A stretch of DNA of 20,256 nucleotides from a virus. Positions within the stretch are counted from its first letter, which is position 1; the number at the start of each line of letters is the position of its first letter. Made by a program: the position numbers and the translations under genes. The stretch covers positions 1 to 20,256 of the IMG/VR virus record IMGVR_UViG_3300025789_000193; one strand, 5' to 3'. Under the pieces are notes generated by a model. That model did not search any database and was not told the DNA's origin. It worked only from the letters and a program-made list of their open reading frames with translations. Below, one piece after another: positions 2,126 to 20,256 of the stretch.

Positions 2126-2533
2126 TTAATCGTGTTCAGGCTCGTAAGACTTGTGAGCCTTTGGCTCAGTTCCCTTAGCAGCCGTGGAAAGTGGGTGCAT
2201 GTTTGCACCAATCTCGCCACCATGCTTGCGGGCCTTACGATCTGCACGATGCTTAGCATGTTCACCATGCATTGCATGCTCTGGGTGAACGTGACCACCA
2301 CGCTTGCGCTTTGCGCGATGCTCAGCCTTAGGATGCTCGTGATGATGCTCCTTGTGCTTTGCATTGTGATGGGCAACATGGCCACCATGCTTGCGCTTGG
2401 TGCGACCGCCATGCTTGCGTTCTTGTGCTTCGTGTTCAGTTGGCGAATTTGCGCCAGCGTACACGTCTTTCACAGCAGCATCAGCGTACATTTCGCCGTG
2501 CGTACCGTCTTCTGACTTATGGACCTTCTTCAT
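2126..2533 (-). CDS. His- and Lys-rich GG-motif protein
   Basis: This 135-residue protein contains 24 His by my count (about 18 percent) plus many Lys, Arg and Glu. The N-terminal 35 residues are ordinary (a GEMYADAAVKDVYAG segment). From residue 38 it carries four copies of an [RK]K[HR]GG motif (RKHGGRT, RKHGGHV, RKRGGHV, RKHGGEI) separated by His-rich spacers such as HKEHHHEH. The segment RADRKARKHGG is shared with the 498-residue protein upstream. The ribosome site is AAGGGA. It lies between the 411-residue virion protein (11-base gap) and a hairpin, at the end of the capsid gene run. The composition suggests metal or nucleic-acid binding, but that is inference. No domain is recognised, and it is likely disordered. 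Confidence 0.7.
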   Translation of the reverse strand: MKKVHKSEDGTHGEMYADAAVKDVYAGANSPTEHEAQERKHGGRTKRKHGGHVAHHNAKHKEHHHEHPKAEHRAKRKRGGHVHPEHAMHGEHAKHRADRKARKHGGEIGANMHPLSTAAKGTEPKAHKSYEPEHD

Positions 2534-3792: not shown

Positions 3793-4707
3793 TTACGAGG
3801 TTGGGAACGAGCCGTAGATCGCGCGCCAGTTGTAGTAACCAAACGAGTAACGCTCGTAGCCCTTAACAAGCAAGTTGTCAGTCACGAAATCGACTTGCAT
3901 GTCTGTTTCAAACTTAATGCGTTCCATATACGCCAAGCCATCAATGTTGGTGAGGAGGAACCAAGCGTAAGCTGAGGTCAAGAAGTCGTTGACCATATAG
4001 CCTTCGCTGAGACCACCTGCCGTCATCATGATCGCGTTGACGTCGTTGTCCGCAGTACCCGGACGCAATTCAGTCTTCGTGAGACGGATTGCAACTGGTT
4101 CTAACTGTGGAGGAACGATTAGTTTGCGGCCACGGGCAAAGATTTTCAAGCCAGCCTGATCTTTGAAGTTCGTGCGGACTGCAATCATTGCATTCAGCAA
4201 GGTGGCTTCGTTCAAGTCAACCTGAGTCGTTGGCGTGTTAGCAACCGTACCACCGTCAATAGGATGCGCCGTGGAGCAGAGTGCTACACCGTCACCGCCA
4301 ACTGCTGCGTTGTACGTCGTTGCCGTGTTAAGGATGTTCGCGCCATAAATTTCCTTAGTCTGCTGGAAAGATTCCACGAGGCCAAGGTTGGATGGCATGA
4401 ACTGGGTCTTGTAGAGGTTATCGTCAATCGCCTTGCGGGTGATTGCGTAACCCAGAGCAATTTCAGTGTGCTCTTGGTTCCAGACGAAGCGTTCGCCAGC
4501 ATTAGAATCAAAAGCGGTCTGGCCGCCTTCAGTCTTAAGCTGTGCGAGGCCAAGGTAACGCATTTCTGCCGTGCGTTCCAAAGCCATCTTTGATTCGTGC
4601 TTCGTGAAGATTTTGTCGTACTGAGATGAAATCATCTCGTACTTGCCTTCTACCCCGCGTAGACCGGGGAGGAGAAGGTCTCTGATCTGACTTAGATTAA
4701 CAGCCAT
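3793..4707 (-). CDS. Major capsid protein (Mu-like / HK97 fold)
   Basis: This 304-residue protein forms the shell. It starts with a strong AAGGAG ribosome site. Features typical of Mu-like and related capsid proteins are the N-terminal helix and LLLPGLRG (11-18), YDKIFTKHESKMALE (30-44), LAQLKTEGGQTAFD (54-67), the HTEIALGYAITRKAIDDNLY stretch (80-99), CSTAHPIDGGTVANTP (144-159), KLIVPPQLEPVAIRL (195-209), and a C-terminal YNWRAIYGS. The length is usual for the family. It is flanked by a probable decoration gene upstream and a virion beta protein downstream, with the scaffold further upstream, which is the standard order. There is no N-terminal prohead-protease fusion, and the scaffold is a separate gene, so assembly is expected to follow the scaffold-dependent route. 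Confidence 0.92.
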   Translation of the reverse strand: MAVNLSQIRDLLLPGLRGVEGKYEMISSQYDKIFTKHESKMALERTAEMRYLGLAQLKTEGGQTAFDSNAGERFVWNQEHTEIALGYAITRKAIDDNLYKTQFMPSNLGLVESFQQTKEIYGANILNTATTYNAAVGGDGVALCSTAHPIDGGTVANTPTTQVDLNEATLLNAMIAVRTNFKDQAGLKIFARGRKLIVPPQLEPVAIRLTKTELRPGTADNDVNAIMMTAGGLSEGYMVNDFLTSAYAWFLLTNIDGLAYMERIKFETDMQVDFVTDNLLVKGYERYSFGYYNWRAIYGSFPTS

Positions 4708-6917: not shown

Positions 6918-7310
6918 TTACCAAACTGCATCAGGTGCCGGGATGCGGCCACGGATGTCGATGTCACGCAAAACGCGGCATTGAACGCCATGCACGTTCA
7001 TAGACCAGCCATCAGATGGGCGGTAAAACACCCAGTCGTTGACATTAACTTCAACGCCCTTGAACCAATCTTGATCGTCGTCAATAAATGCCAATGGCCC
7101 TTTTTTGACCACAAGACCAACTTTGCCTTGATACTTGTCTTCCTCAACGTACTTATCCGTTAAGTGAATACCGCTTTTGGTCTTGTTAGGGCGCACATAT
7201 GTTGCAATCAAAACATGCGTGTTAAACACTTCAATATCTTTAATGTCGCCCAATTCTTTAAGAATAGATTCCTTTGGGTCTACGTCGTGATGCATCCGCG
7301 TATACGGCAT
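6918..7310 (-). CDS. GroES-like co-chaperonin
   Basis: This 130-residue protein matches the GroES (cpn10) layout. After a 30-residue lead, HVLIATYVRPN corresponds to the first barrel strands. The segment 41-60 (NKTKSGIHLTDKYVEEDKYQ) fits the mobile loop with its hydrophobic contact motif, here GIHL at 47-50 instead of the GIVL of E. coli. It continues with GKVGLVVKKGPLAF, VEVNVNDWVFYR, and the C-terminal strand pattern VQCRVLRDIDIRGRI. GroES caps the chaperonin GroEL; phage versions such as T4 gp31 help fold the capsid protein. Position just before scaffold and capsid genes supports that role. The ribosome site is GAGG with a six-base spacer. No GroEL is encoded in the window, so it would act with the host chaperonin. 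Length is above the bacterial 95-100 because of both termini. Confidence 0.75.
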   Translation of the reverse strand: MPYTRMHHDVDPKESILKELGDIKDIEVFNTHVLIATYVRPNKTKSGIHLTDKYVEEDKYQGKVGLVVKKGPLAFIDDDQDWFKGVEVNVNDWVFYRPSDGWSMNVHGVQCRVLRDIDIRGRIPAPDAVW

Positions 7311-7582: not shown

Positions 7583-9079
7583 TTAATCTAAGCCGTAAGC
7601 CTTGATCTTCTCAAGACGGCCCAAGCCGCCACCCGCCGCATGGTCAATCACATGCTCAACCTTACCGCCCATCTTGCGACCAATTGGAGGCATACCCGGA
7701 CGAGCCGCACCCATTGGAGGTAATGCAGGCGCGCCACCGCCCATAGGTGCGCCCATAGGCATGCCGCCCATTGGAGGCATTTGAGGGCGTGGTGGTGGTG
7801 GAGGTGGCATCATTGGCCCACCCATTGGAGGCATCACAGGAGGCTGCGACATGCCGCTATGTGGGTGGATCATGATGTTGACGTTAGTCTTCCCTTTGGT
7901 TGAACCGCCATGCTTGCGAGCAACACGGCCACCGTCAACACCCGGAACTTCATGCGGATAACCTTGACGGACATACAAGCCACGGCCAGCCTCGCCGCCG
8001 TCAGCGTGATGCATGCGCTTCAATGTTTTAGCCAAATTAGCCTTTTTAGCTAACTTTGGATTGTCACTGTGTGCAGCCTTCTCAAGCTTCTTAGCAGGAA
8101 TCTTTTCTCCAGCAGGAACATGAAGAGCCTTGTGAAGCGAACCCGGATGCTTAATAGCGCCTTGAATCCACTTGGTTGGTCCGCCTTCAGCCTTTTTAGA
8201 CTTAGCTTCACCGCCCCAGCAATGTTCATCACGCTTCATAGCAGATGACTTAATCATCTTCTTAATGAGTGCCTTGTCTTCCGCCTCATCAGGATGCGCT
8301 GCGCCGCCCTTGGCATGCTTAGAACGAATTTTACCACCCTTTTTAGCGCCCATCTTATCGGCGTAGCGAGGTGCTTTGGGGCCAGAATGCAGGTTAGGGT
8401 CAACCATTGGCGCGCTTTTCTTGAACACTGGCTCACCATCAGCAGGCAACCCACGCCCCCGTGCGCCCATACGGAAACCATCATCATTTTGAATTTTTTG
8501 TGTGATCTGATCCTGCCCCTCTGGGTCAATGCCGGGGACAAAACCATCATTCGCATAATGTCCACGATGAACTTTGCCGCCCTTTTTCATCATTGGCTTG
8601 CCTGCCATACCCGGCGCAATACCAACTGGAGGGCGAGCCATCATTGGGCGCATTGGACGCATGCCCCGCATTGGGCGACCAGCTAATGGGGCGCCTGCAA
8701 TTGGAGCATCACCAACGGCACCAGCCATAGCCTTGTGAGTACGGCCACCACGCTTCATGCCGCCCGTGTGCTTAACACCAGCGCGTTCGTCATTAGCCAT
8801 TTTGTTGTCGCGGTTGATGTAACCGTCTACAGACATTGCGCGGCCACCCTCTTTACGGGCCTTGCGATCTGCGCGCTTTTTGGCATGTACGCCGTGTACC
8901 TTGCCGCCAGACTTATACTGACGTGGGCTGACTGGGCGCATGCCAGTCTGTTTGTCCGCCTCAAGCATCTCAGGCGGCGACCACGACGAGGAGTCAACTT
9001 TAGTATGAGGCTCACCGCTCTGGATGCCTTTTAACTTCTTGGCTGCACCCTCACGGGCCTGTTTAAGATACTCATGCAT
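7583..9079 (-). CDS. Lys/His/Gly-rich GG-motif protein, likely minor virion component
   Basis: This 498-residue protein starts after an AAGGAG site. It is strongly basic and contains about 14 double-glycine motifs, most with a charged neighbour (KSGGKV, RKEGGRA, KRGGRT, KKGGKV, KKGGKI, ADGGEA, RKHGGST, RKMGGKV). Residues about 301-355 look like a small folded part: KWIQGAIKHPGSLHKAL, GEKIPAKKLEKAA, then LAKKANLAKTLKRMHHADGG; I recall a WIQxAIKxPGxL ... KIPxxxL pattern from other viral proteins, often virion-associated. Residues about 408-470 are a Met/Pro/Gly repeat (MPPMGG). The C-terminus is helical (GGLGRLEKIKAYGLD). It shares RADRKARK-GG with the His-rich protein and ADGGE with the 1132-residue protein. 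Between portal and scaffold genes, an internal DNA-associated virion role is plausible but unproven. Confidence 0.65.
   Translation of the reverse strand: MHEYLKQAREGAAKKLKGIQSGEPHTKVDSSSWSPPEMLEADKQTGMRPVSPRQYKSGGKVHGVHAKKRADRKARKEGGRAMSVDGYINRDNKMANDERAGVKHTGGMKRGGRTHKAMAGAVGDAPIAGAPLAGRPMRGMRPMRPMMARPPVGIAPGMAGKPMMKKGGKVHRGHYANDGFVPGIDPEGQDQITQKIQNDDGFRMGARGRGLPADGEPVFKKSAPMVDPNLHSGPKAPRYADKMGAKKGGKIRSKHAKGGAAHPDEAEDKALIKKMIKSSAMKRDEHCWGGEAKSKKAEGGPTKWIQGAIKHPGSLHKALHVPAGEKIPAKKLEKAAHSDNPKLAKKANLAKTLKRMHHADGGEAGRGLYVRQGYPHEVPGVDGGRVARKHGGSTKGKTNVNIMIHPHSGMSQPPVMPPMGGPMMPPPPPPRPQMPPMGGMPMGAPMGGGAPALPPMGAARPGMPPIGRKMGGKVEHVIDHAAGGGLGRLEKIKAYGLD
7680..7834 (-). repeat. Met-Pro-Pro-Met-Gly-Gly coding repeats
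   Basis: Within the 498-residue gene, near-identical units around CCCATTGGAGGCAT (plus-strand reading) recur at 7680-7693, 7710-7720, 7767-7780 and 7821-7834, with degenerate copies between. They encode MPPMGG or MPPIG units next to a run of six prolines. The copies keep the reading frame, so they are coding repeats and not an array of another kind. The result is a flexible, low-complexity linker. Confidence 0.75.
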
Positions 9080-9157: not shown

Positions 9158-12100
9158 TCATGATCTGTTCTGCATTCTTAACAGTCGTATAGAATTAGCC
9201 AACGCATTGTTTTCTCCCACAGAACCACCAGAAGCTAGTCTGTAGTTAGGGACTTTAGACCAATCAATAGCATTAGCATATTTGGCAAGACTTGCGCCTA
9301 AATTCTTATAGGGTGTGCTTGCTGGGTATACATAAGGGATAGGCTTGCCCGGAATTACTGGTTGTGGAGGAATAGTAGCCGTCGCAACAGGCGTAACGTC
9401 AGGAACGTATGGCGTAGATTGAGTATTGCCCCCTCCAACTCTTTCAGGAGCCTGATAACCCGGCGCCATAGACTGACCAGTTAACTCAGGGTTGGCATTA
9501 TACCGTGGGTCTGTGTTTATTTTATTATAGGCGGGGTTTAATGAACCATCAGGTAAATACATTGGCACAAATGGATTTGTAACATCTTCAATGAGTTTAT
9601 TAAATGAACTGCCTAACGTAGGATTGCCTCTAGCATCTACAGTTAACGGCGTCCTTGCACCCAATGCCATAGCCGCCACAGAATTTTGGGGGGATTGCAA
9701 CGCCCTATTTAATTGATCGCTAGTGAAATTAGGATTACCCGCCATAACTTGGGCCACGTTATTATTGTAAGCCGCAATCATGCGAGGGTCTTCTACGCTA
9801 TCTACGGGAATATTTCTGTAAGGGTCAGTAAATTGATTGACGTCTGGCGTTAACCCATAAGTGCGGGCCAAAATTGGGTCTGATGGAACGTATGTTTCTG
9901 AACCTTGCGCCACAGGCGTTGTTGGGCCGCCCGCTAAACCAGAGCCTGTAACTTTGGGAGTAGTTGCAGTTGGTTGAGTATTTGGTTCAGTTGCAACCGT
10001 TTCCGTGCCAGCACCTTTTCCGGCCAATGCTAAAGCTTGTTTTACCGCCACATCTTTTGATGCCTCAGTATCTAGCCTTTTTAATGCTGCTTGCATTGGG
10101 TCAACAGGCTGCCCTGAATTTAAAACCGCATTAATAGCAGCTTGCTGTGCCGCATTTGAGTAAATTGGAGATGTTGCGGCGGGTTTTGTATAATTTGCAC
10201 CAGTTAAAACAGCATTTATTGCATCTTCTTGTGAAGCTGGTTGTACCGCCGCAAGAGATTGCGCTGGAGTACCTGACGCACTTGTTAAAGCGCCCTGACG
10301 ATTTAAAATATTTGTCATGTCGCTTAAATTTGCGGCTCCGGTCGCCGCCGCAGCCGTGTATTTATCTGTAGTGTCAGCAAATGGGTTAGGGATTGATACT
10401 GCTTCTATTGGAGTAGGTTCAGTATAATTAGCACCACTTACAACTGCATTAATTGCCGCTTGCTGTTGAGCGGCGGCATTAGCATCAGCTAATTGTTGCG
10501 CTTCCACCATTTGAGCCGCTGAAGCGTCAAGCATTTGAGAGGACATGCCAGATGCAGTTGTTATTGGCCCACTAAGCGGTGGATTGGATGGGCTTGCGGG
10601 TCCATAAAGGTAACTGGTGTCTGTTCCGGTTAATTGATTAACATTTGGATTGGCTAACGGGGAATTTGCGCCAAGTGTATCTACAGGACCATTAGCCGCC
10701 GCAGCCAAAGCAGCCGCCATAGCTTGATCTATTGTTGGTGTAGTTACAGCATTATCTGGGACATTTACAGGAGCAGGTTGTATGTCAGCAATGTTTCCTT
10801 GCGGGGCAATTGAAGGTTGCGATGGAAGATTAGCAGCTTCAGCGGGAGAAACGCCAAACATTTGATTAACAACATTGAGGGCTGAATCCACAATAGACGG
10901 AGATTCTGGCGCAACATTTTGATTTGCTTGCGTTTGTGCGTCAGCCTGTGCTTGTTGATCAGCCTGTGCTTGTTGATCAGCAGACCGTTGTTCTGATTGA
11001 GAAACGCTATCCGCACGGACATTATCGCCACCGCCAGCATCACCGCCACCGCCAGCATCGCCGCCATCATCAAAGTGCTTGCGGGCTATACGCAAAGCAT
11101 GCGCAATGTCGTCATTGACCTCACCACCATCGGCACGGCCACGTTTAGCTAATTCCATAGCCTCACTAAGTGAATCTTTTAATTCTGGGTCAACAATTTG
11201 ATACGCAGTGCTTCCTGCATAAGCTTTGTATTTTGCTGGAGCCGTTGCATTTGGCGTTCTAAGATTATACGCATTAGCAAAATCACGAAATACTTTGTCT
11301 TTGTAAATAGGCGTCTCAAATCCACCTTCATATGTTCCCGGCATAGAGATAGGATATGAACCAACTGGAACTGTTGGAGATTTAGATACTGGATTTTCCA
11401 TATTTAATTTACCAATTGACATACCTGTTGAGTATGTAGGTAATCCCCCCAACAAAGGTTCTGTTGTAGCAAATCTCGCCGCGCCAACGTCAGGAAATCC
11501 GCGTTTTAATAATTCAGAAGTATCCATTCCTTTAGAGAATTTTATTCTTGCGTCGCCCTGACCTTGCTTCATTAAATAATCATGCAATTCGTCTGAATAT
11601 AAACCGGGGAAATCTTCAAATGGCTTGTAAACTTCTTTACCCGCTGAAGAAATTTGTTGTGCTTTCATAAAGTCATTAAATTTTTGAGCGTCTGATGCGC
11701 TAATTCTTGACGGGTCCAACATCCCTAAAAGTGCTTTTGCTGTATGTATAGAAAAGTCACCAGATCGCGGCCCCATGCCAACGTGTACGCCATACACATC
11801 AGGATTTTCATACCCTAGTTTTTTTGACTCTTCTACCGCCGCGCCCGCTTTGTTCGCAAGACCAGATACAATTGATTGACCAGATGCCCAAATGTCTGGA
11901 GTCATGCGCATATAACCTTCCCCACCTTCAGTATCAGTGGGAAAGTGAAGCCGATTGCTATTAATATCTGTAATTCTGCGGCCAGCGGACGTTAAATCTC
12001 CAAAAAATGGAATAATTACGTCGCCTGTCTTCATTGATTGCGGATCAAAAATTTTCCGCTCTTGCATATCACGATATGGCTGGTGTGTATAACTCCACTC

Positions 12101-12556
12101 TTCGTATGGAGTTCTTGATAGCACTTTAGAAAACCGCGAACCGTAATCGCGGGGCGTCATTCCCGCTTGATCCGCTAATTCTTGCAATGTTGTGGTAGTT
12201 GTTGGCCTATTGTGACCCATGCCTACAGATAAATTCGCCGCAGGAGATGGCCCTAATGATCCTAAATCTGATTGGACACTAGAAGGCATTGTATATGGTG
12301 GGAACTCTCCACGGCTGCGAGCTTCAGCACGAGCTACAGCTTCTTCAATATTATTTCTTGCATACGCAGCTTGATTAGCCGCTGCATTAGGAACAATATT
12401 AGATGGTAATTCTTGTTTAGCTAAATTAATTGCATTTATCACATCGTCAGGGATGTTAGACCCTGTACCGCCACCACGCGGAAATACAGTCTCAGTCCCT
12501 AATGTATAGCCGGGCAGCAAGCGACCTAATGGATCAGTTAATTCAGCTTCACTCAT
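9158..12556 (-). CDS. Large two-part protein: globular N-terminal domain and low-complexity C-terminal half
   Basis: This 1132-residue protein starts seven bases after the portal gene. Residues about 130-470 appear folded: TPYEEWSYTHQPYRDMQERK, MKTGDVIIPFFGDLTSAGRR, LHFPTDTEGGEGYMR, DIWASGQSIVSGLANKAG, and a helical section. The pattern of a GDVxIPFFGDxxSAGRxxTxIN stretch followed by P-x-D-x-x-GG-x-x-Y and W-A-S-G resembles, from memory, an accessory domain found in large polyvalent phage proteins injected with DNA. Near 475-510 comes RADGGEVNDDIAHALRIARK and a Gly/Asp-rich run. Residues 510-1080 are Ala/Gln/Pro/Thr-rich with internal repeats. The last 50 residues (TPYKNLGASLAKYANAIDWS) regain normal composition. 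It may be a virion or ejected protein; no catalytic residues are assigned. No signal peptide is seen. Confidence 0.6.
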   Translation of the reverse strand: MSEAELTDPLGRLLPGYTLGTETVFPRGGGTGSNIPDDVINAINLAKQELPSNIVPNAAANQAAYARNNIEEAVARAEARSRGEFPPYTMPSSVQSDLGSLGPSPAANLSVGMGHNRPTTTTTLQELADQAGMTPRDYGSRFSKVLSRTPYEEWSYTHQPYRDMQERKIFDPQSMKTGDVIIPFFGDLTSAGRRITDINSNRLHFPTDTEGGEGYMRMTPDIWASGQSIVSGLANKAGAAVEESKKLGYENPDVYGVHVGMGPRSGDFSIHTAKALLGMLDPSRISASDAQKFNDFMKAQQISSAGKEVYKPFEDFPGLYSDELHDYLMKQGQGDARIKFSKGMDTSELLKRGFPDVGAARFATTEPLLGGLPTYSTGMSIGKLNMENPVSKSPTVPVGSYPISMPGTYEGGFETPIYKDKVFRDFANAYNLRTPNATAPAKYKAYAGSTAYQIVDPELKDSLSEAMELAKRGRADGGEVNDDIAHALRIARKHFDDGGDAGGGGDAGGGDNVRADSVSQSEQRSADQQAQADQQAQADAQTQANQNVAPESPSIVDSALNVVNQMFGVSPAEAANLPSQPSIAPQGNIADIQPAPVNVPDNAVTTPTIDQAMAAALAAAANGPVDTLGANSPLANPNVNQLTGTDTSYLYGPASPSNPPLSGPITTASGMSSQMLDASAAQMVEAQQLADANAAAQQQAAINAVVSGANYTEPTPIEAVSIPNPFADTTDKYTAAAATGAANLSDMTNILNRQGALTSASGTPAQSLAAVQPASQEDAINAVLTGANYTKPAATSPIYSNAAQQAAINAVLNSGQPVDPMQAALKRLDTEASKDVAVKQALALAGKGAGTETVATEPNTQPTATTPKVTGSGLAGGPTTPVAQGSETYVPSDPILARTYGLTPDVNQFTDPYRNIPVDSVEDPRMIAAYNNNVAQVMAGNPNFTSDQLNRALQSPQNSVAAMALGARTPLTVDARGNPTLGSSFNKLIEDVTNPFVPMYLPDGSLNPAYNKINTDPRYNANPELTGQSMAPGYQAPERVGGGNTQSTPYVPDVTPVATATIPPQPVIPGKPIPYVYPASTPYKNLGASLAKYANAIDWSKVPNYRLASGGSVGENNALANSIRLLRMQNRS
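10111..10466 (-). repeat. Three INAV coding repeats in the 1132-residue protein
   Basis: Residues about 697-815 carry three diverged copies of a short unit: AAINAVVSGANYTEP, DAINAVLTGANYTKP and AAINAVLNSGQPVDP. The first two are 120 bases or more apart, so this is a spaced and not a tandem repeat. The DNA copies (around 10417-10466, 10182-10231 and 10111-10147) keep the frame. It indicates internal duplication in the low-complexity half of the protein. Confidence 0.7.
10941..10980 (-). repeat. 18-base tandem repeat encoding Gln/Ala/Asp
   Basis: Two exact 18-base copies (10941-10958 and 10959-10976) encode a DQQAQA unit twice in the 1132-residue protein. About 50 bases away, 11028-11059 holds a second 18-base-period repeat coding GDAGGG. 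Both preserve the frame. Such perfect copies suggest recent slippage and likely length variation between related phages. Confidence 0.8.
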
Positions 12557-12563
12557 GTTTTAC

Positions 12564-14858
12564 CTACTGTATAACGCCGCCGGGCTGTGGTGCCATTTCA
12601 GGTTCGTTGCCCTCAAGACGCTGCAACATGCCCGGATCAATGAGTTGGCGAGCAATGTTAAGGCCTTGTGGGTTACGGGCCATTTCTTCTGCAAACTTAA
12701 CCGCCGCAAGACGTTCACGGCTTTCACGGTCGCGCTTGCGATTGATGGCATCCAACTCAGAGTCAACGCCCTTCTGCCGGATTTCAGCCAATTGGATTTG
12801 ATCCTCTGGCGACATTTGCTGATTCGCGCCCATCTTAGACTGCAACTCAGCCGTCTTGGCTTGCGCTTCCATCATCTTAGATTGCGCCGTAATCATTGCC
12901 GCCTGTCCAGCCATCTGCGCGGCCTGAGCCTGCGGGTCTGGTGGTGGCGGCTGGTTCTGAACGTCACGCAGCAACGTGCTAGGGTTAGCCCAGCCAAGTG
13001 TTAACAAGGCTTCACGGTTAACCGCGTCAAGGTTGTACAAGTCAGGCGCCTGCTGAGCCAACTGCACGAGGGCCGTCACTTTCATGACGCGCTGAATATG
13101 GCTGGCCGTGTTAGGATCAGCTTGCGGAACCAAATCATAGTTATCCAAGGCGGACAAAAATGTCCGCTCATCCCACTGGCCCGCTGGGCGCTTGTTGCGC
13201 TGCCAGAACGAATCAGGGTGGTCGCGGAAACACTGCGCAAGCAACTGGAACTCTTCAGCTTGAGCCGCGTGTAAACGCTTGTGAACGCTATTGAGAAGCT
13301 TCTGGGCTTGCTCAATGATGGCCAATGTCGTGCCAACAGGGGCGTCTTGTTTACCCTCGCCCACTTGCATCTCAGCGGTGCCACCAAGGCGCTGGCCGTA
13401 TTGGCTAATGGTCTCCGCAAATGCACCCAATGCGCTGGATGGCTCCTTGTAAGGCAATGGCATAACGGCTTGCTGGATGGGCATGCCAGCCGTGTCAATT
13501 TGCGCGCCGCCGCCCGGAGGAACGCGGAATATGTTACTATTCTGACGTCCAGAAGTTTTGGCATACAAAAAGCCGGGGAAGTTGGCGTACATACCAGCAT
13601 CAAGCAATTCGCGCCAAACGGCAGTCAAGCCATTGGTCGTATTGCCTAGAATGTGAAGTAGACCCATGCCATAAAACTTGAGACCCGGCACAAAGTCATA
13701 CTTAACAAAGTGTGTGCCTGCCTCTGGTAGGTCTTGATCCTGCTCATCATAATTCCGTACAATATTTAAAATCTGCTTAGACGACACGTCTATGGTAACG
13801 CGGTAAGGGACTTCCAAGCCGGACGACTCGCCGTCAATTTCATGCTCAAAACCCGGAATGTCTAATTCGCAGTAGCACTCATATATTTCGCGGTCACGAT
13901 CTTCCGCGACGTTGATATCGTCTTGAGTTCCTTGAATTGCGTTTTTCTCTTTTTGAACAGCGTCAAGTTCCTTTTGCTTGGCTTGTCCAAGGTCAACGTC
14001 CCGGTATGCGCCAATAATCTGCATTCTTTTGACAACCGTAGGACGCATAGAGATTCTGTGGGTAATCCGGCGAGCATTTGAAAGGTCCGTTGCTTCATTG
14101 TTGACAATAAGGTCATCAGCATCAACCGTTTCAGAAACGGGACGGTTACGCAGGGGGCAAAAGTAAACCTTCTTAAAGGCTGACCCGCCAAAGCCCAACA
14201 TAAAAAGCATCTTGTCCGTGTCAGGATAATATTCCTTTGCAGTCACGGTGAGGTAATGGTTAAAATCCTTCTCAAGATATTCCGCCTGCTGGTCCATTTG
14301 CGGCGAGTCTTGATTGCTGTCTACTCTGATTTTGACAGGCCCGTCAGTGGGCAGTAACTCTGCCCGCGCATTCGCCTGAAAGCGCAATACGGATTCCAGC
14401 AAGAGCGGGTGGCGGATACGGGACATTCCCTCAACAGGTGCGCCATCAGCCGTACCTTGCTGATTTGGAATTTCAATCTTAAGGCCCAGAAGTCGTAGAC
14501 CCTGTGCGCGGTCTTCAATCCACTCCTTGCGAGAATCAATATCTTCCTCAATGCCCTTAATAAGCTGATGAGCAATCGCGGATAAGTCAGTCTCGTTAAT
14601 TTCTTCAGCCAAGTTGGCATACCAGCCCTCAGTTTTCTTTTTCTTAGAAGACTCAATAGGACGCCCGTCAAGGGAAACGCTAATAGAGCCATCCCCGTGG
14701 TCAATACGGAGAACATTGCCATCAACGTCCATTTCTGGCTGATCAGCATCTTCGTCAGCATCCATTACGACAATGGTGTCTTGCCCCTCCACAGAGGGTA
14801 AATCAGGTTGTTCTTGATCAAGGCGTATGTTTGGGACAAGTCCGGGCGTCAGTGCCAT
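12564..14858 (-). CDS. Portal protein (head-tail connector), large podovirus type
   Basis: The 764-residue portal forms the twelve-fold ring through which DNA enters and leaves. Clear family stretches are GMSRIRHPLLLESVLRFQAN (about 144-163), MLFMLGFGGSAFKKVYF, VDADDLIVNNEATDLSNARR, KYDFVPGLKFYGMGLLHILG and LTAVWRELLDAGMYANFPGF, followed by GTTLAIIEQAQKLLNSVHKR. The last 130 residues start with a QPPPPDPQAQ hinge and form a long coiled coil (AQSKMMEAQAKTAELQSKMG, then RESRERLAAVKFAEEMARN), like the barrel extension of P22-type portals. It lies two small non-structural genes and more downstream of TerL and just upstream of the 1132-residue gene. The start has AGGAA eight bases upstream. An acidic N-terminus (about 20-60) precedes the core. 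The length suits a P22-like portal (725 residues). Confidence 0.85.
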   Translation of the reverse strand: MALTPGLVPNIRLDQEQPDLPSVEGQDTIVVMDADEDADQPEMDVDGNVLRIDHGDGSISVSLDGRPIESSKKKKTEGWYANLAEEINETDLSAIAHQLIKGIEEDIDSRKEWIEDRAQGLRLLGLKIEIPNQQGTADGAPVEGMSRIRHPLLLESVLRFQANARAELLPTDGPVKIRVDSNQDSPQMDQQAEYLEKDFNHYLTVTAKEYYPDTDKMLFMLGFGGSAFKKVYFCPLRNRPVSETVDADDLIVNNEATDLSNARRITHRISMRPTVVKRMQIIGAYRDVDLGQAKQKELDAVQKEKNAIQGTQDDINVAEDRDREIYECYCELDIPGFEHEIDGESSGLEVPYRVTIDVSSKQILNIVRNYDEQDQDLPEAGTHFVKYDFVPGLKFYGMGLLHILGNTTNGLTAVWRELLDAGMYANFPGFLYAKTSGRQNSNIFRVPPGGGAQIDTAGMPIQQAVMPLPYKEPSSALGAFAETISQYGQRLGGTAEMQVGEGKQDAPVGTTLAIIEQAQKLLNSVHKRLHAAQAEEFQLLAQCFRDHPDSFWQRNKRPAGQWDERTFLSALDNYDLVPQADPNTASHIQRVMKVTALVQLAQQAPDLYNLDAVNREALLTLGWANPSTLLRDVQNQPPPPDPQAQAAQMAGQAAMITAQSKMMEAQAKTAELQSKMGANQQMSPEDQIQLAEIRQKGVDSELDAINRKRDRESRERLAAVKFAEEMARNPQGLNIARQLIDPGMLQRLEGNEPEMAPQPGGVIQ

Positions 14859-15896: not shown

Positions 15897-17591
15897 TTAG
15901 ACGGGATACAATGGCTGGCTTTCCCTACTTCCCCGGAACATATTATTTCCCGCAAGTTCAGCGGTCCGCTCAGCGCCACGCTGAAGCATTCCTGTCCCGC
16001 GCAGCCAATTTAGCGCCTGCGTTACCGTATCGTGTAAGTCATCATGTTTTCCCTTGGGAAATGTGGCGCATTGAGCCACGACCATCTCAGCCCAAACACG
16101 GAAAACATCGCCGCCAGCATCCGTTGGCGCCACAATCATCCCCTCAGAAAACAGATGTTGAACGGAATAGGTTCTGGCGACCTTATCCATCCCCTTAGGG
16201 TCAATTAATCTGACGCCGTAATTTTCGTAGCCAAATAACCGTCGCAGTTCTTGGCTGACGGAAATGCCGGACGCCTTGTTTTCAATCAGCAGGTAGTCAA
16301 TCTTCCATTCACGGGCAGACTGTCCTATTTTGTTGACAAGTTCATGAAGTTCCATGCGCCCCTGCCACGCATGCATAAGAATTGCCTTTGGCACGTCAGC
16401 TTCGCGGTCTTCCGCAGAGATACGCTGCCAGTTTCCCGTCATGTCTGCGCCAATTACGCCAGATGCCGGGCCAGCGTCACGGTATACGCCCCATATTGTG
16501 CAGGCAGAAAAGTCGCCCTCAAACTCTTTGGCGCCAAATGCCGTATCAACAGACGCTATGACTATTTCTAGATTGTGTGGAAACTTTTCTTTAGTCCACT
16601 CGCCCCACCATTCTCGTTTAATAATACCACCGCCTGCTGGCTCTGGACGCTGCTGCAACTGACCCGCCGCCGCATAGGGGCCAAGGGTCTTCTCAAGCAA
16701 TGTAACTTCTTCATCTCCAAACCGCTCAGGCCAAAGTAGCTGACCCTCCTCCGTTCTTTGGTCAGTCCAGACCACTGGCTCGCCGTCATTAAACTCTGCG
16801 GGAACAAGAACATTGTACGTCCTCCGTGCAGTTTCAAATCTCATTGGCAAGCAAAGGTGCGTCCACTCACCAATGTCCTTGGATAGAATATGCCCCGTAA
16901 CGTCGTTCTCTGACAAGCGTTGTTGAATAACTATTTTGACACCCCGCTTGGGGTCATTAAGGCGGGTGGACCACGCCATGTCCCACCACTCAATCGTGGA
17001 CGCCACAATAGCTTCAGAATTAGCTTCCTGAGCATTGTTAGGATCGTCCGCAATCAAATAATTACCGCCAAGACCCGTCGTGGCTGATCCAACTGACACT
17101 GTGTTGCGTATACCGTTCTTGTCATTCTGAAAGCGCGTTTTGGTGTTTTGATCGCCAACAAGTCTAAACCTGTCGCCCCACAATGTCTGATACCATTTGC
17201 TTTCAATAAGGCGCCTGCACTTTACAGAATCTTGCACAGATAAGCCCATCGCATAGGAGGAGTGCAAAAATTGCATTCCCGGCCCAGAAGTTGGCGACGA
17301 AAGGCTTTGAGTCCATACCCAAGCTGGGAACATAGTCCCGGTAATGGTTGACTTTGAGAATCTAGGCGGCACGTTAATGATTAAATTTCTAATATAACCA
17401 TCAGCACAAGCTTGTAAATGCTCACATATAGCTTGCAAAGCAAAGCCGCCCTCAGCAAAGGGCGCGGAGTCAATCTCACGCCACGCCCGTTGGGTAAAGT
17501 TATACAAGCTTTCTTCGTAGTTAGCCGCCTTTAGCTTCCTACGCAGGATTCTTGCCTCGCCTTCAGATAGATTATTTACATCAAATGTCAT
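15897..17591 (-). CDS. terL: Terminase large subunit (packaging ATPase and nuclease)
   Basis: TerL cuts concatemeric DNA and drives it through the portal. The 564-residue protein shows an ATPase with a Walker A of the PPRxxKS type (VPPRFSKS, 74-81), a Walker B YLIADDPN (178-185, with D182 and D183) and a coupling motif VIQQRLSENDVTG (221-233). The C-terminal nuclease has its acidic residues at D349 (SVDTAF), E437 (LLIENKASG) and D517/D518 (KHDDLHDTV). Family length is about 450-600. The start ATG has no clear ribosome site (GGGG lies about 15 bases away); no better in-frame start exists before residue 74. It follows a possible small terminase gene by 31 bases. It is the most secure call of the window together with the capsid and portal genes. 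Confidence 0.95.
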   Translation of the reverse strand: MTFDVNNLSEGEARILRRKLKAANYEESLYNFTQRAWREIDSAPFAEGGFALQAICEHLQACADGYIRNLIINVPPRFSKSTITGTMFPAWVWTQSLSSPTSGPGMQFLHSSYAMGLSVQDSVKCRRLIESKWYQTLWGDRFRLVGDQNTKTRFQNDKNGIRNTVSVGSATTGLGGNYLIADDPNNAQEANSEAIVASTIEWWDMAWSTRLNDPKRGVKIVIQQRLSENDVTGHILSKDIGEWTHLCLPMRFETARRTYNVLVPAEFNDGEPVVWTDQRTEEGQLLWPERFGDEEVTLLEKTLGPYAAAGQLQQRPEPAGGGIIKREWWGEWTKEKFPHNLEIVIASVDTAFGAKEFEGDFSACTIWGVYRDAGPASGVIGADMTGNWQRISAEDREADVPKAILMHAWQGRMELHELVNKIGQSAREWKIDYLLIENKASGISVSQELRRLFGYENYGVRLIDPKGMDKVARTYSVQHLFSEGMIVAPTDAGGDVFRVWAEMVVAQCATFPKGKHDDLHDTVTQALNWLRGTGMLQRGAERTAELAGNNMFRGSRESQPLYPV

Positions 17592-19983: not shown

Positions 19984-20216
19984 GACCGCACCATGCCGCA
20001 GTAGCCGTGGGTTGTGCTAAATAGTCCTTCGCGTATCACGCAATCGTCTATATCTTTTACTTCTTTAATTAAATTAACCCACCGCCAAGCCATGCACTTG
20101 GGGCCACTACATCCGTAATGTTCATGCGGAGTAGCAACGCAATCCATTTTGAATGCCTCTTCAGGCGTCACATAGTGTGGGTTGTCAGTCGTATTTTGGT
20201 TTATTGTCATCGTCAT
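19980..20216 (-). CDS. Cysteine-rich small phage protein (C-x4-C-x-AWRW ... GYCG), copy 1
   Basis: The 78-residue protein has Cys at 26, 36, 41, 59 and 73. It shares DNPHYVTPEE, the C-x4-C-x-AWRW stretch (CSGPKCMAWRW) and the final GYCG with the gene at 15367-15600. The start could also be the ATG two codons on, and only GAGA precedes it as a ribosome site. The extra C59 has no counterpart in the paralogue. Zinc or iron-sulphur binding is inferred from the Cys pattern alone. The role is unknown. Confidence 0.7.
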   Translation of the reverse strand: MTMTINQNTTDNPHYVTPEEAFKMDCVATPHEHYGCSGPKCMAWRWVNLIKEVKDIDDCVIREGLFSTTHGYCGMVRS

Positions 20217-20256
20217 TCTCGTTAATTGATATGGTTAAGTTTGTTATCTGTGAGTA
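20185..20256 (-). other. Possible 3' end of an upstream gene, frame undecided
   Basis: At the right edge, two minus-strand frames remain open. One runs 23 residues to a stop at 20185-20187, ending DDDNKPKYD and overlapping the start of the cysteine-rich gene. The other ends sooner, after LTDNKLNHIN, just before that gene. Either could be the tail of a gene outside the window. The evidence is too short to choose. Confidence 0.25.

Follow-up and report, generated by a model that had tools for sequence, protein, structure and literature searches.

A portal-adjacent phage gene with exchangeable payloads, probably cargo of the virion

The phage polyvalent proteins are described, in the part of the published account available to us, as large proteins encoded near virion genes and predicted to be packaged and injected, with ART-PolyVal, InPase and LPD23 among their domains (Iyer et al., 2017; PMC5512222). 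The internal proteins of the T-even phages, as far as the accessible portion of PMC3012670 goes, are diverse proteins directed against host attack, and have no more in common than a short capsid targeting sequence. Here we consider a gene of the IMG/VR virus record IMGVR_UViG_3300025789_000193, of which positions 1 to 20,256 were analysed (the window, below, is this whole stretch of 20,256 nucleotides). The gene occupies positions 9158-12556 on the minus strand, directly downstream of the portal gene, a place that we call the slot. Phages that are otherwise nearly identical swap the N-terminal payload of the protein encoded there while keeping its leader and tag sequences, a point lying beyond the view of the first-pass annotation of the window, which had been made from the letters alone and whose interpretation is supported in part. 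That the front domain is swapped while the end tags are kept suggests a standard slot for packed, injected proteins, and we consider it probable that the gene encodes an exchangeable, virion-packaged cargo.

We read the slot protein as a short leader, a payload domain, a box of the form 'GGxV..I..ALRIARKHFDDGG', an extended and flexible linker and, at the C-terminus, a tag of the form 'GGxV..NNALANALR'. Like the polyvalent proteins it is encoded near virion genes, and its relatives join ART-PolyVal, InPase or LPD23 to the payload domain; unlike them, it has one recognized folded domain and no catalogued Pfam domain, its N-terminal payload varies ahead of a constant tag and is exchanged as an allele of one slot, and a search of 72,556 plasmid records, with one query, did not return that payload domain. 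Polyvalent proteins combine at least two domains of disparate activity in one polypeptide; the window protein holds one modelled domain, and further polyvalent domains are present in 7 of the 13 relatives scanned. The likeness to the T-even internal proteins is one of organization only, in that unlike slot proteins have a common tag (13/14, against 0/58 other genes) and shared leaders; it is known here from genes alone, whereas cutting by the head protease and packaging are features of the T-even side. The slot tag differs, moreover, in being C-terminal and repeated inside the protein, and the payloads in being alleles of one portal-adjacent gene. Polymorphic toxins, too, join a constant trafficking part to exchangeable payloads, but in the slot the payload is N-terminal, the constant part C-terminal and the carrier a phage. 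On the best reading, a domain family that looks restricted to viruses occupies a polymorphic cargo slot whose proteins bear tags, and the arrangement is a variant of the polyvalent or internal proteins.

Exchange of payloads in the slot

The slot gene is one open reading frame (ORF) of 1132 codons and a stop, the longest in the window, the next longest being that of the portal protein. This agrees with the first-pass annotation, which had left the strand unsaid and had placed the gene, correctly, between the portal and capsid genes: the portal gene is directly upstream, and between the slot gene and the major capsid gene are six ORFs that we count as genes, a GroES homologue among them. The annotation was also right about the protein's low-complexity half, with spaced INAV units (residues 702, 780 and 808) and 18-base tandem arrays (10941-10981 and 11026-11066, 2.3 copies each), and about three motifs, GDVIIPFFGD (residues 179-188), SAGRR (191-195) and GGEGYMR (212-218). 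The frame did not arise by chance, since other contigs encode its stretches at 94-100% identity, residues 1-514 at 100% in L002 and residues 477-1132 at 96% in L001. Terminase, portal, slot, GroES and capsid genes form one same-strand block, so that the slot lies, as polyvalent genes do, beside late virion genes.

A search with the portal protein gave 80 loci, 39 of them with a portal at least 80% identical (the window, L001 and L003-L005 included). The gene that follows the portal gene (hereafter +1, the next one +2, and so on) was usable in 34 of these 39, five lacking it, and was classed by blastp of residues 56-480. The 34 genes fall into six classes, and the five other than the window's stand behind portals 83-100% identical: a lysozyme and ParB-like group, the latter label being a tentative one from motifs (13 loci), a 'HDLHDNGHLF' group (8 loci), the window's own domain (6 loci), a 'HVEELQSDWGQ' group (4 loci), L117 with L135 (2 loci), and L116 (1 locus), whose ART-PolyVal match lies below the Pfam cut-off. 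Pfam lysozyme was found in the slot proteins of L004, L005 and L118, and the lysozyme domain (Phage_lysozyme2) had no match in the window protein. At several loci of the 'HDLHDNGHLF' group two genes make up the slot, one for the payload and another that bears the tag. Two classes are without Pfam match (L113, L111 and relatives), namely 'HVEELQSDWGQ', with a partial match to phrog_7348, and 'HDLHDNGHLF...FRAVHD', with phrog_3170, of unknown function; both motifs were also seen, by eye, in UOF80349 of MW202675.

The extent of the exchange is best seen in pairs of loci. Between the window and L108 the portal is 98% identical, GroES 100%, the major capsid protein 100% over 234 residues and the leader identical at 53/53 positions, but the domain is only 43% identical; the leader is also recognizable in L126 (52% of 48 residues), ahead of a different payload. 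The DNA of L001 is 94% identical to that of the window up to codon 2, unlike it through the payload, and 96% identical again from codon 481 into the next gene. Six loci were compared with the window in this way. The upstream homology runs to codon 2-3 in five of them and to codon 66 in the sixth; four (L001, L108, L113 and L130) regain it inside the internal box, and three (L108, L113 and L131) at codon 1113, which belongs to the C-terminal tag, the contigs of L111 and L130 ending before the tag. Close relatives keep the leader and/or the boxes and swap the payload, be it the window's domain, a lysozyme, an ART-like, a ParB-like or some other domain.

Elsewhere in the portal group the arrangement differs. 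In L257-L260 (Planktothrix phage Pag-Yong1, Alcaligenes phage QDWS535, ct2os315 and ct2G2228) a related portal gene is followed by that of GroES, directly or after a short gene, and there is no large cargo gene between the two; in L251-L253 and L256 large genes are found between terminase and portal instead.

Leaders, boxes and the C-terminal tag

The box was captured by a strict regular expression, [IV]..A[LIVM].[ILMV][AVT][RK], which is present in 12/18 non-redundant slot proteins, 15/55 proteins with the payload domain, 0/20 next genes and 20/693 other genes. Of 22 other box proteins that were listed, 17 follow a portal gene, four adjoin a domain gene in polyvalent clusters and one is unexplained. 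Position matters: the box is found in 26/43 of the +1 genes, in 2/28 of the +2 genes and in 0/160 of the other four classes (portal, +3, later and upstream), with a Fisher p of 5e-17 that should not be taken as a true probability, the sequences being related and the expression post hoc. A second expression, likewise post hoc and scored in the last 50 residues, recognizes the C-terminal tag in 13/14 complete slot proteins of the close group, in 3/10 +2 genes (the split ones) and in 0/58 other genes; the fourteenth complete protein is the window's own, whose tag is one residue off the expression and was recognized by eye.

Leaders recur ahead of unlike payloads in other lineages as well. In Roseobacter phage CRP-902 (L008), gp65, gp66, gp68 and gp72, the last of which holds the payload domain, share an N-terminal leader, MANP[VI]K, with 37-43% identity over the first 28-35 residues and remainders that are unlike, while gp63 is without it; in C72C1 and L011 the leader (MANGLLEMQSRPYRTSNLFDIPVDEGTR) is identical at 94% of 32 residues.

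The tag and the boxes probably fasten the slot protein to the inner side of the head during assembly, close to the portal, so that it would be packaged and would enter the host with the DNA, on the model of the T-even internal proteins. Its position next to the portal would suit a virion-packed protein, and in this respect the suggestion of the first-pass annotation, which had likened it to ejected virion proteins, appears sound. The payload would then act inside the host at entry, on host defence or on nucleic acid.

Family and fold of the payload domain

With the N-terminal region as query, tblastn found 3 of 50,697 phage records, at 25-28% identity, and a fourth record came via another query; the proteins bear the names hypothetical protein or 'type I restriction enzyme'. 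The latter label looks wrong for UOF80306 of MW202675 (L007:6759-9455), which holds the payload domain together with InPase. Viral stretches were then picked by a degenerate DNA motif built from WPG...GFPD, and the domain was checked by hmmsearch with a four-sequence hidden Markov model: it was confirmed in 96/96 stretches from viral contigs, while the same motif picked 66 stretches from prokaryote genome contigs, of which 2/66 hold the domain, both in metagenome-assembled genomes. From these figures, and from its absence among the plasmid records mentioned above, the family looks virus-restricted within these collections and this motif.

No family in Pfam, PHROGs or NCBIfam covers the domain in 68 sequences, and the window protein has no Pfam or PHROG match at E<=0.1. 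Scattered weak matches were read as chance: Arg_decarbox_C (two members, best E 3.3e-5), TIGR01132 pgm (two members, best E 5.1e-4), phrog_21033 (six members, best E 0.0038) and others in fewer members. The open-access literature searched yielded no description of the domain or the tag. The domain is real, as the first-pass annotation had supposed, and common to large multi-domain phage proteins: relatives range from about 440 residues, little but the domain, to open frames of about 2200 residues, and among 13 larger ones scanned, ART-PolyVal was found in four, InPase in three (one with both) and LPD23 in one.

Conservation was scored over 73 non-redundant sequences (effective number of sequences 30), in window numbering. 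The positions D188 (70/70), G213 (70/70), W224 (61/72), R362 (73/73), G379 (73/73) and H399 (71/72) stand out, together with WPG at 317-319 (W in 71/73) and GFP at 354-356 (G and P in 73/73, F in 72); D268 is replaced by N in 22/73.

Structure prediction, a check that the first-pass annotation had proposed, gave a confident AlphaFold2 model of residues 110-480 from 68 sequences, with a predicted local distance difference test score (pLDDT) of 91.1 and a predicted template modelling score (pTM) of 0.89; the domain of L023 gave 92.4 and 0.89, the two models sharing the sequences of their alignment and hence not independent. The structural search returned resemblance limited to a weak likeness to YTH/EVE domains, which are PUA-like readers of modified bases. 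VIA-align placed YTH chains first for the window model (11 rows, Z 6.0-7.6), then EVE at Z 4.2 and 3.6, the latter being Rpa0253, which we take to be an EVE protein; for L023, YTH chains again came first (13 rows, Z 6.3-7.8), then EVE at Z 5.3 and 4.8. YTH/EVE chains thus fill the top 13 and top 15 rows, the best unrelated ones having Z 2.7 and 3.5, and only YTH or EVE structures exceed Z 4.5 in both models, over about 130-154 aligned residues. Within the payload the order WAS - helix - PVYG resembles, by eye, the VW(C/S)(S/T) - helix - VYLLFS of YTH, and W224 may, again by eye, be a candidate residue of an aromatic cage for a methylated base. Among predicted viral structures there were seventeen matches at E<=0.001, hardly any of which carry a named function; the one at BFVD rank 15 has the label 'Structural protein' of a Flavobacterium phage.

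Several observations tell against this likeness. A VIA-align Z below 8 is a level reached by unrelated models, and its top rows repeat a single family many times over; a Foldseek search of the PDB left both models without a match at E<=0.001 (best E 0.33 and 0.91); comparison by hhalign with a profile of two YTH sequences gave a non-significant probability of 0.1%; and the window copy is altered at 3/21 highly conserved positions (R189L, W317F and H399V). The payload further differs from YTH and EVE in its Z of at most 7.8, without sequence support, in a helical insertion with the WPG...GFPD motif, and in that the second cage Trp of YTH was not placed. None of the 68 members matched YTH or EVE in Pfam at E<=0.1, and no EVE model was found in the window record. 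Ribosomal protein uL1, the best profile match among PDB sequences (E 0.097), was rejected. We therefore treat a PUA-like fold as a lead, somewhat favoured by the models, and the binding of a modified base as a tentative and on balance doubtful proposal. It is the resemblance of the model to YTH/EVE domains that suggests, as the predicted task of the payload, nucleic-acid binding, perhaps of a modified base.

Competing explanations, neighbouring genes and meaning

The slot protein might instead be a fixed component of the head-neck or ejection channel, like gp14-16 of T7 or gp16 of P22, with an N-terminal domain that merely drifts fast. Its place beside the portal, its low-complexity linker and the lysozyme of some slot alleles would suit such a part, lysozyme being common in ejection proteins, yet drift cannot yield DNA 94-97% identical to the start codon, then unrelated payloads, then renewed homology at the boxes. 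Furthermore, in Pag-Yong1, QDWS535, ct2os315 and ct2G2228 the stretch between a related portal gene and that of GroES holds no gene of such size, so a head of this type does not require the slot gene, and we find the structural explanation unlikely. An early-expressed intracellular anti-defence protein that is never packaged, for which one might invoke the one-domain family members without any box, seems very unlikely for a gene that sits inside the late terminase-portal-GroES-capsid block on one strand; polyvalent proteins near virion genes are read as packaged in the part of the account available to us (PMC5512222). The domain could also be an injected catalytic effector, transferase- or nuclease-like, that modifies a host target by means of D188, D268, R362 and H399. 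Several of these polar residues are strongly conserved across the 73 sequences and the fusion partners are enzymes, but no enzyme family or fold was matched, D268 is often N, and the window copy has lost both H399 and R189. We hold this to be rather unlikely, and weakly favour nucleic-acid binding over catalysis. The enzymatic or toxin-like activity entertained in the first-pass annotation fares no better, for the window protein had no match to a catalytic family, and the 68 domain sequences had no credible one; nothing matched in support of a toxin, and lethal-factor chains in the Foldseek rows, at E>=4, were taken as noise.

The boxes themselves could serve recombination and not packaging, as hot spots or neutral linkers that survive as joints between cassettes. 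The DNA breakpoints do coincide with them. This possibility counts, with several other points, against the idea of packaged cargo. At loci with a portal below 80%, however, viewed after the expression had been fixed and only a partial hold-out, boxes of the same pattern occur at the N-terminus, at the C-terminus or between domains of the +1 genes (14/25; +2 genes 2/16) and in 0/96 others, positions that point to selection on the protein, though the pattern was found by eye; recombination joints without a packaging role therefore seem to us a somewhat improbable account. Those other points are as follows. The box expression was written after reading the slot proteins, so that its counts are not independent of them, and it is missing from 40/55 non-redundant domain proteins. 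In distant loci the tag is C-terminal in 4/18 slot proteins (2/13 +2 genes, 0/91 others) and present anywhere in 7/18; the box is less marked among distant relatives, and marine ones lack it. A check of its generality, over ten named phages with related portals, MW202675 and CRP-902 (the genes of L259 and L260 not being listed), found it in 2/18 hand-picked cargo candidates, both of MW202675, and in 1/80 other hand-listed genes; it is therefore not a feature of the wider portal group. For elemoC, elemo and CRP-902, no virion proteomics or infection data were found in the open-access literature, including, for CRP-902, the available part of PMC10149686.

The gene next to the slot, whose product is 498 residues long, is its conserved partner: it is kept, at 60-99% identity over the aligned parts, in 7/8 comparison loci, and has no match in the eighth, L131, where the contig ends. 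Its product ends in AAGGGLGRLEKIKAYGLD and has many [KR]xGG motifs. A similar '(G/S)xGRLEK' end adjoins the slot in distant relatives, for example L142, L178, L180 and UOF80350 'yenB' of MW202675. Near the capsid genes a very basic ORF of 135 residues (2126-2533, minus strand) repeats the KHGG and KRGG motifs of the 498-residue protein, and may be an internal protein that binds DNA. Close to the end of the window (20182-20228) there is an imperfect tandem repeat of 22 bases.

Table 1. Features of the window, with the evidence on which each was assigned.
Feature	Position	Strand	Basis
Slot gene, 1132-residue putative cargo protein, directly downstream of portal gene	9158-12556	-	ORF; 94-100% identical stretches in L001, L002
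Leader, residues 1-53, with N-terminal box (NIPDDVINAINLAK)	12398-12556	-	Comparison with L108, L126
Payload domain, residues 154-472 (modelled as 110-480), 'GDR/WPG/GFPD' family, mixed alpha/beta, possibly PUA-like	11141-12097	-	hmmsearch, AlphaFold2, conservation
Internal box, residues 477-500 (GGEVNDDIAHALRIARKHFDDGGD)	11057-11128	-	DNA homology to L001, L108, L113, L130 restarts inside
Low-complexity linker, residues 501-1109, with 18-base repeats and three INAV units	9230-11056	-	Sequence
C-terminal tag, residues 1110-1132 (GGSVGENNALANSIRLLRMQNRS)	9161-9229	-	Same kind at C-end of slot proteins with other payloads
Portal gene, 764 residues, anchor of the slot	12564-14858	-	PHROG portal E 3.9e-35; Pfam SU10_portal E 1.5e-16
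Next gene, 498 residues, Lys/Gly-rich, C-terminal GRLEK motif	7583-9079	-	Comparison loci
GroES-like co-chaperonin	6918-7310	-	Pfam Cpn10 E 1.9e-7
Large terminase gene	15897-17591	-	PHROG E 3.4e-81
Major capsid gene	3793-4707	-	PHROG major head protein E 9.7e-11

A bolder version of the cargo proposal, which we regard as doubtful, would make the slot a polymorphic-effector site in which unlike payloads are exchanged between the boxes and the 'GGxV...NALR' box is a portable tag that loads any protein fused to it into the virion, for injection; the payload of the window protein would found a virus-restricted family of readers of modified nucleic acid, set against defence based on base modification at entry, and other lineages of the portal group would use other leaders to the same end. 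If the reading of the slot as a place for packaged cargo is true, the components of a phage cargo system (leader, payload, boxes and tag) can be seen in it, and the payloads, one family of them without a model in Pfam, PHROGs or NCBIfam, could be read like alleles. One could then test by what means early effectors of many kinds, with no fold in common, find their way into phage heads, and against which defence each payload is directed; the tag, likewise, could be tried as a means of loading proteins into phage.

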